64,000 bases of DNA from Streptomyces sp. V3I8. GTDB lineage: Bacteria > Actinomycetota > Actinomycetes > Streptomycetales > Streptomycetaceae. The notes beneath the pieces are model-generated. The model had not been told where the DNA came from and searched no databases. It was given only the letters and a program-made list of their open reading frames with translations. The translations under genes were made by a program, and so were the position numbers. This document shows, in pieces, positions 24,300 to 28,067 of the stretch. How positions within the stretch are numbered: the first letter of the stretch is position 1; every line of letters starts with the position of its first letter. The DNA lies in NCBI RefSeq assembly GCF_030817535.1, contig NZ_JAUSZL010000002.1:2728001-2792000 (forward strand), given 5' to 3'.

Positions 24300-25977
<1,678 letters not shown>

Positions 25978-26003
25978 GGGTCTGCTTCCTTTACCTACGG
26001 CTC

Positions 26004-27855
26004 TCAGTCGTCTTCGTTGTCGCCGAAGTCGGGGCGGACGTCCCGGGCGGCCAGGATCTCGTCGTTCGAGGTGCCGGCGGCGACCATCGGCCACACCATG
26101 GCGTCCTCGTGGACGATGAAGTCGATCACGACGGGACGGTCGTTGACCGAGTTCGCCTCTTCGATGACCTTGTCGAGGTCGTCGGGCGACTCGCAGCGGA
26201 TCGCGTAGCAGCCCATGGCCTCGGACAGCTTCACGAAGTCGGGGACGCGGGTGCCGGCGCTCGGCTGCTTGCCGTCCGCGTCCGGGCCGCTGTGCAGCAC
26301 GGTGTTGGAGTAGCGCTGGTTGTAGAAGAGGGTCTGCCACTGGCGGACCATCCCGAGGGCGCCGTTGTTGATGATGGCGACCTTGATCGGGATGTTGTTC
26401 AGGGCGCAGGTGGTGAGTTCCTGGTTGGTCATCTGGAAACAGCCGTCGCCGTCGATCGCCCAGACCGTGCGGTCCGGTGCGCCGGGCCTTGGCGCCCATC
26501 GCGGCGGGCACCGCGTAGCCCATCGTCCCGGCGCCGCCGGAGTTGAGCCAGGTCGCCGGCTGCTCGTACCGGATGTAGTGCGCGGACCACATCTGGTGCT
26601 GGCCGACGCCCGCGGCGAAGATCGTGCCCTCGGGCGCGAGCTGTCCGATGCGCTCGATGACCTGCTGCGGCGCGAGCGAGCCGTTCGCGGGCTGCTCGTA
26701 GCCCAGCGGGTACGTCTCGCGCCAGCGGTCGAGGTCCTTCCACCAGGCGGTGTAGTCGCCGACGTGCCCCTCGTTGTGCTCCTTCTGCACGGCCTGGACC
26801 AGGTCGGCGACGACCTCGCGGGCGTCTCCGACGATCGGCACGTCGGCGGCGCGGTTCTTGCCGATCTCGGCCGGGTCGATGTCGGCGTGGACGATCTTCG
26901 CGTGCGGGGCGAAGCTGTCCAGCTTGCCGGTGACGCGGTCGTCGAAGCGGGCTCCGAGGGCGACGATCAGGTCGGCCTTCTGCAGCGCGGTGACGGCGGT
27001 GACCGCACCGTGCATGCCCGGCATCCCCACGTGCAGCGGGTGGCTGTCGGGGAATGCGCCGAGCGCCATCAGGGTGGTGGTGACGGGCGCTCCGGTGAGT
27101 TCCGCGAGGACCTTCAGCTCGGCGGTGGCGCCGGCCTTGATGACGCCGCCGCCGACGTAGAGGACGGGCCGCTTCGCCTGGGTGATCAGCCGGGCCGCCT
27201 CGCGGATCTGCTTGGCGTGCGGCTTGGTCACCGGGCGGTAGCCGGGCAGGTCCATGACCGGCGGCCAGGAGAAGGTGGTCCTGGCCTGGAGGATGTCCTT
27301 GGGGATGTCGACCAGGACCGGTCCCGGGCGGCCGCTGGAGGCGATGTGGAACGCCTGCGCGATCGCCTGGGGGATGTCCTCCGCCCTGGTGACCAGGAAG
27401 CTGTGCTTGGTGATCGGCATGGTGATGCCGACGATGTCCGCCTCCTGGAAGGCGTCCGTACCGATCGCCTGGGAGACGACCTGCCCGGTGATGGCGACCA
27501 GCGGCACGGAGTCCATGTGGGCGTCCGCGATCGGGGTGACCAGGTTGGTGGCGCCCGGCCCGGACGTCGCCATGCACACCCCGACCTTGCCGGTGGCCTG
27601 CGCGTACCCGGTGGCCGCGTGACCCGCGCCCTGCTCGTGGCGGACCAGCACGTGCCGCACCCGCGTGGAGTCCATCAGCGGGTCGTACGCCGGAAGGATG
27701 GTGCCGCCGGGAATGCCGAATACCGTCTCGGCCCCGACCTCCTCAAGGGAGCGGACGAGGGACTGCGCTCCCGTCACCTGCTCGGGGGCGGACTGCTGTC
27801 CTCCGGAACGGGGCCGCGGCTGCGGGTGGTGGGCCCCGGTGGCCTGCTCGGTCAT
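26004..27855 (-). pseudogene. ilvB: Acetolactate synthase large subunit, broken by a one-base frameshift in this sequence
   Basis: A ThDP enzyme condensing two pyruvates (or pyruvate plus 2-ketobutyrate). ATG 27853-27855 is preferred over the ATG two codons earlier because GAGAAGAG then has proper spacing. The frame is normal through [15 protein letters not shown], and the remaining 150 codons ([20 protein letters not shown] to the end) lie in the +1 frame. The shift comes from one extra G in the run 26484-26486: deleting it restores [17 protein letters not shown] and a 616-aa enzyme of normal length. ThDP Glu ([11 protein letters not shown]) and the Mg motif (GDGCFQM) are both intact. Because ilvN and the leader are intact, a sequencing error or very recent mutation is likelier than real loss. 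Confidence 0.9.
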
Positions 27856-27934
27856 CGGCATTCTCTTCTCGATGCTGAGGGTTTTTGCGAGTTTTGTGCG
27901 GTGTGCGGTTACTGGGCGACAGTCACTCGTGCAA

Positions 27935-27969
27935 CAAAAAACCCCTCGTGCCGAAAGGCAGGCGAGGGG
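27935..27969 (-). terminator. Attenuator terminator of the ilvBN operon
   Basis: On the minus strand CCCCTCG (27963-27969) and CGAGGGG (27942-27948) pair across a 14-nt loop and are followed by six U residues. It lies 57 nt after the leader-peptide stop and 80 nt before ilvB, the arrangement of a branched-chain amino-acid attenuator. Confidence 0.85.
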
Positions 27970-28025
27970 AGCGCGTCGGGTGCGGTCACTGGGAGTTCCG
28001 GTTCATCGATCCGGTGCTTCCCAGC

Positions 28026-28067
28026 TCAGCCGACGCGCTTTCCAAGTACGAGAATTCGGGTGCGCAT
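28026..28067 (-). CDS. ilvB leader peptide MRTRILVLGKRVG
   Basis: A 14-codon micro-ORF with AGGAGG 9 nt upstream of ATG 28065-28067. Codons 5-8 are ATT CTC GTA CTT, that is Ile-Leu-Val-Leu spelled with codons that are rare here, so ribosome stalling would report shortage of any branched-chain aminoacyl-tRNA. The downstream hairpin at 27942-27969 completes the attenuator. Such leaders before ilvB are known from comparative work in actinobacteria. Its promoter must overlap the end of the upstream GGDEF gene (possible -10 CATAAT at 28125-28130). Confidence 0.85.
   Translation of the reverse strand: MRTRILVLGKRVG

Follow-up and report, generated by a model that had tools for sequence, protein, structure and literature searches.

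The ilv locus and its upstream elements

The window, by which we mean the whole stretch of 64,000 nucleotides analyzed here, is part of the 8.85-Mb contig (C2) of a Streptomyces genome, hereafter abbreviated as G000, the assembly of which comprises 9.32 Mb in 4 contigs. On the minus strand it carries, in this order, a leader peptide, the gene ilvB for the large subunit of acetolactate (acetohydroxyacid) synthase, the gene ilvN for its small, regulatory subunit and the gene ilvC for ketol-acid reductoisomerase. The ilvN gene (25450..25977, minus strand) adjoins ilvB and is intact from start to stop codon, with ACT and ALS_ss_C domains and a match of 199.9 bits to TIGR00119 that is the sole one in the G000 genome. 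Also intact is ilvC (24300..25418, minus strand), as recognized from the list of open reading frames and from Pfam, the coordinates being those of the longest possible ORF.

Upstream of ilvB the minus strand reads as a conserved leader peptide, MRTRILVLGKRVG (28026..28067), which includes codons for Ile, Leu and Val, and then as an attenuator-like terminator hairpin of the form CCCCTCG...CGAGGGG with a run of T (27936..27969). For comparison we used a homologue set consisting of the best 80 of at least 592 confirmed stretches, the 80 all being Streptomyces loci. In this set a peptide that contains MRTRILVLG[KQ]R is found upstream in 79 of the best 80 loci, the script having located none in the remaining one (L080), and all of the best 80 have GAGGG or GAGGGG with four or more T behind it. 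The fold z-score for 27930-28067 is -3.46. Since a scan of the window with Rfam returned no family at the gathering threshold, the attenuator is described here from its sequence only. For ilvN, ilvC and the leader of ilvB, domain matches, start and stop codons and the reading of the leader bear out the first-pass annotation, which had considered these two genes and both leader elements to be undamaged.

In domain order, sequence, gene order and the presence of an upstream leader, the locus resembles biosynthetic IlvB (TIGR00118; NF005860) and the ilvBNC genes of Streptomyces, such as S. coelicolor SCO5512-5514. It differs from biosynthetic IlvB in that the C-terminal TPP-binding domain is spread over two reading frames owing to an extra base in G000.

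One extra base divides ilvB between two frames

The ilvB gene (26004..27861, minus strand), recognized from the list of open reading frames, TIGR00118 and Pfam, starts at 27861 (ATG CCG ATG) and reads as an acetolactate synthase large subunit up to ...AAMGAKA; past residue 459 the reading leaves this frame, and what remains lies in another one and ends with the stop codon TGA at 26006-26004. The first frame matches positions 2-424 of the TIGR00118 profile with 619.9 bits, a score that alone exceeds the curated cut-off of 538.35 bits, and the other frame matches positions 426-555 with 126.2 bits. The Pfam domain TPP_enzyme_C (PF02775) is cut at the lesion, with profile positions 1-43 in one frame and 44-151 in the other, the latter within the 159 C-terminal codons (26007..26483, minus strand), and the N, M and C domains of this TPP enzyme do not occur together in one chain. 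The detached C-terminal part retains the GDG motif of the TPP-binding domain, which belongs to the cofactor site, and its best solved relative is 6wo1, the catalytic subunit of an acetohydroxyacid synthase. When the pieces are combined, the gene has 618 codons from the first ATG and 616 from the second; the length of 616 amino acids proposed previously hence stands if counted from the second ATG, whereas the C-terminal portion, given then as 150 codons, actually has 159. The site of the extra base is GGG on the plus strand (26484..26486; CCC on the coding strand), where relatives are one base shorter, and this is also where the one-base lesion had been placed before.

Beyond the lesion the shifted frame contains no stop ahead of ilvN, so that the sequence as it stands has a single ORF of 803 amino acids (25450..27861, minus strand; list of open reading frames and Pfam) that ends with the whole small subunit. 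It begins with the N and M domains, continues with 43 positions of the C domain and then some 169 residues that are out of frame, and closes with the whole IlvN. As far as can be read from the sequence, neither this chain nor the detached C-terminal piece should be an active enzyme. The full-length model NF005860, which needs more than 881 bits in one frame, is presumably not reached by G000 ilvB, because the best E-value here is 2.9e-251 and the entries that pass show 0.

Conservation of the frame in relatives and across the genus

Among the matches listed, the nearest loci are those of S. apricus (L009) and S. tauricus (L010), the best segments of which are 97% and 95% identical, respectively. 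DNA identity over about 10.5 kb is 93.9% for S. apricus and 92.8% for S. tauricus, values which indicate that these two organisms and G000 are probably different species. The interval from the codons of ATGGGCGCC to a TGG codon measures 36 nt and is in frame in all of the best 80 Streptomyces loci (of at least 592), and G000 has one base more over this interval, a difference that shows directly at 26486 in the alignment with L009 and L010. All three of the syntenic genomes that served as references for the comparison of frameshifts (G007, G009 and G013) likewise have this interval in frame, and G000 is one base longer there than each of them. A lesion common to the relatives was rejected on the basis of the 80 in-frame loci. 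Four of these (L012, L014, L050 and L051) had been suspected on account of a tblastn match that reached residue 477, and all four are in frame.

The distribution of complete ilvB was then evaluated in 200 Streptomyces genomes, G000 among them, which were sampled evenly from a larger group and are each at least 95% complete. A match to NF005860 over its cut-off, corresponding to full-length ilvB, is present in 196 of the 200; the other four are G090, G163 and G205, which were confirmed, and G000, for which the absence is presumed from the E-value. In G205 there are two pieces of ilvB that end at contig edges, and G163, an assembly of about 1040 contigs, has no ilvB-like piece among its nine matches; two of the three exceptions besides G000 look like cases of assembly fragmentation. 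G090 possesses two copies (C1:272419-274454 and C3:742865-744292), both without the middle of the gene, since they match profile positions 8-296 and 21-297 and then 515-613 and 515-612, with about 845 and 250 nt in between; the missing middle could be masked, misassembled or real. We also observed that the ilvB match of G113 (C1:4886851-4888695), which is over the cut-off, contains one TGA.

Codon comparison with S. apricus, made without gaps and leaving out shifted entries, such as L011 and L014, in which non-synonymous differences are very numerous, gave 15 synonymous and 2 non-synonymous differences in the 159 codons downstream of the lesion, and 7 synonymous and 6 non-synonymous differences in the last 100 codons before it. 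These counts indicate that the downstream part has been under selection until very recently. The lack of decay after the lesion is compatible with an error or with a mutation that has only just arisen, and not with an old pseudogene.

Search for substitute enzymes in the G000 genome

The first-pass annotation had proposed to search the genome for a second large subunit of acetolactate synthase, and this search found none over the TIGR00118 cut-off in G000, the ilvB locus alone passing it. A genome search with PF02775 gave 13 matches, which consist of the two pieces of ilvB, eight enzymes typed with NCBIfam and three others. The eight typed TPP enzymes, none of which is over the TIGR00118 cut-off, are full-length and comprise a glyoxylate carboligase, two IolD, a pyruvate dehydrogenase, one enzyme of the PRK08273 type and three that remain below the cut-offs, as judged for each of these three among its best 25 NCBIfam matches. 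The three other matches, namely C2:5070170 (107 bits, in a frame of 382 amino acids) and two weak ones, are absent from the TIGR00118 list. Further along the pathway, ilvD and ilvE are present over their cut-offs, the latter inside the window (C2:2741388-2742323). With no second large subunit over the cut-off, a real lesion of ilvB would remove the first step of the pathway, and since this is the only broken one among the steps checked, G000 taken literally would be auxotrophic.

Other frameshifts in G000 and in reference genomes

The earlier claim that no other gene of the window is damaged holds for the 30, 29 and 29 genes that could be compared with the three references (43,165 of the 64,000 bases). 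A discrepancy with L009 at 32477 was considered as a second lesion and rejected, for it lies upstream of the likely start of the neighboring gene.

About 27 kb ahead of the first base of the window, and about 54 kb from ilvB, the gene for D-Ala-D-Ala ligase (G000:C2:2,700,028-2,701,108; L116) is likewise split between two frames by a one-base insertion. It is the only match of G000 over the TIGR01205 cut-off. The insertion lies at about 2,700,988 of C2 and makes the gene one base longer than in three of three references. Its exact placement shifts by several bases with the alignment, falling in a C run against G013 and G009 and a few bases downstream against G007; for the insertions in ilvB and in the ligase gene alike, the best placement is within a run of C that precedes GG. 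D-Ala-D-Ala ligase is indispensable for a cell with peptidoglycan.

The frequency of such lesions was estimated with a census that spanned 0.8 of the 9.3 Mb of G000, the candidates being sorted by eye. With a single reference, there were 5 candidates among 199 genes in G000 and 9 among 197 in G007, and the genes with internal stops numbered 16 and 28, respectively. With three references and 400 kb for each genome, the census produced 11 clusters in G000, 19 in G007, 14 in G013 and 11 in G009, of which 5, 2, 3 and 1, respectively, had the support of two or more references. Of the five backed clusters of G000, those of ilvB and the ligase gene were kept as internal one-base frameshifts, each with the support of all three references; the third was dropped as the product of an over-long start of ilvB, as were those at joined positions 284,132 and 319,708, which have homology on one side only. 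Most of the dropped entries of the census lie at gene starts or between neighboring genes, because the ORF picker takes over-long starts.

An extension to 800 kb against G007 gave 9 candidates among 408 genes of G000, and the reciprocal test 11 among 394 genes of G007, including one uncertain two-base case. Only ilvB and the ligase gene were judged to be clean internal one-base frameshifts among these 408 genes of G000; the candidate at joined position 774,462 lies in a stretch of low complexity and is doubtful, and that at 454,960, of low identity (68%/68%), was left out of the sorting. A nucleotide census, run besides the 400-kb pairs, found 9 uncompensated indels among 329 genes of G000 and 10 among 327 genes of G007.

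Altogether, two clean one-base cases were judged in G000, one in G013 and none in G007 and G009. The case of G013 (C1, joined position about 75,477 of L160-L179) is a frameshift against three of three references, situated close to the 3' end of a gene that has about 1,300 codons. Because G013 also carries a one-base insertion with such support, lesions of this kind are not special to the G000 assembly, and G000 does not stand out much by their number. The telling point is that both clean cases of G000 strike indispensable single-copy genes. A different kind of change was seen in G007 (C1, joined position about 225,047 of L129-L148), where an insertion of 32 nt with the inverted repeat CCCCCAC...GTGGGGG breaks a 179-codon gene whose frame is open in both G000 and G013.

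Origin of the extra base

The first-pass annotation rightly named assembly error and true mutation as the two readings of the extra base. We consider it most probable that this base is a one-base indel error left behind in the consensus of an assembly made from long reads. The single-copy ligase gene is broken in a similar way, which a living strain could hardly tolerate, so that spurious one-base insertions are very probably present in indispensable genes of the G000 assembly; it is very unlikely that one living strain would bear genuine lesions in ilvB and in the ligase gene at once. The error would have been made by sequencing or consensus calling, one such process would explain both insertions, and the living strain would most likely carry an ordinary, intact ilvB. 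Long reads are suggested only by the small number of contigs (4 for 9.3 Mb). A published study on homology-based polishing describes the systematic nanopore errors that survive polishing as consisting mainly of indels in homopolymers, by which reading frames are shifted (PMC8011154). The G000 cases resemble the residual indels described there in being one-base changes in a C/G run by which conserved genes are frameshifted with respect to their homologues. They are unlike them in that the run of ilvB is very short (CC to CCC), not the classic long homopolymer; besides this short run, the completeness of 100 and the contamination of 0.22 speak for a good assembly and so against an error. Speculatively, cytosine methylation at a GGCCGG site may have misled base calling, given that GGCmCGG and GCCmCG are m5C motifs of S. 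coelicolor according to a published report (PMC10148868). The ilvB site reads GGCCGG in 71 and GGCGGG in 9 of the best 80 loci (of at least 592), and the motifs thus fit the site in ilvB, not that in the ligase gene; methylation as the cause is a guess.

The opposite reading is that a real and recent one-base insertion has killed ilvB by cutting its C domain, in a Val/Leu/Ile auxotroph propagated on rich medium. The base does stand in the assembly, inside a contiguous contig, the genome offers no other large subunit over the cut-off as a rescue, and the absence of decay downstream is equally compatible with a very recent event. Yet a real mutation would leave the similar lesion in the only D-Ala-D-Ala ligase gene to be explained too, and the other parts of the pathway that were checked are intact or present; we therefore regard this reading as unlikely, with a small chance of being true. 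It is hardly credible that the lesion is real but silent, with ribosomal frameshifting or transcriptional slippage restoring the frame in a fraction of the products. CCC before GG is not known to be a slippery run, and the extra base occurs in none of the best 80 loci (of at least 592), so that there is no conserved programmed site of frameshifting among them. Nothing specific favors such a rescue, although a review mentions that frameshifting can correct indels (PMC5009743). Just as far-fetched appears the takeover of the function by another TPP enzyme, for instance those at C2:1649475 or C2:8105763. Both are full-length and have acetolactate synthase models as their best matches (PRK05858 'acetolactate synthase' for the former), but they remain below the cut-offs of these models (509.4 vs 587 bits and 386.3 vs 538.35 bits, respectively), the next family of C2:1649475 is 2-hydroxyacyl-CoA lyase, and the genome has one ilvN only.

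Assembly error being the preferred reading, the statement that the lesion destroys ilvB, with the ensuing auxotrophy or need for a second large subunit, is not upheld as biology: there is no second large subunit over the cut-off, the ligase gene is broken alike, and the rest of ilvB and the pathway genes checked are undecayed. That the strain truly lacks a working ilvB, either as a natural branched-chain auxotroph or by having recruited an unclassified TPP enzyme, seems improbable to us.

Consequences for the interpretation of the genome

Left uncorrected, the extra base would produce a false pseudogene or a false IlvB-IlvN fusion protein of 803 amino acids, since an annotation pipeline could take the ORF spanning large and small subunits for a real fusion, and it would lead to a false prediction of amino acid auxotrophy. 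The ligase gene is a second core gene of the G000 assembly that is affected, and together these cases are a quality warning to anyone who bases metabolic models on the genome. As a biological feature, the frameshift in ilvB most likely means nothing. Were it real, it would make G000 a rare auxotroph, given that almost every sampled genome of the genus has ilvB whole (196 of 200).
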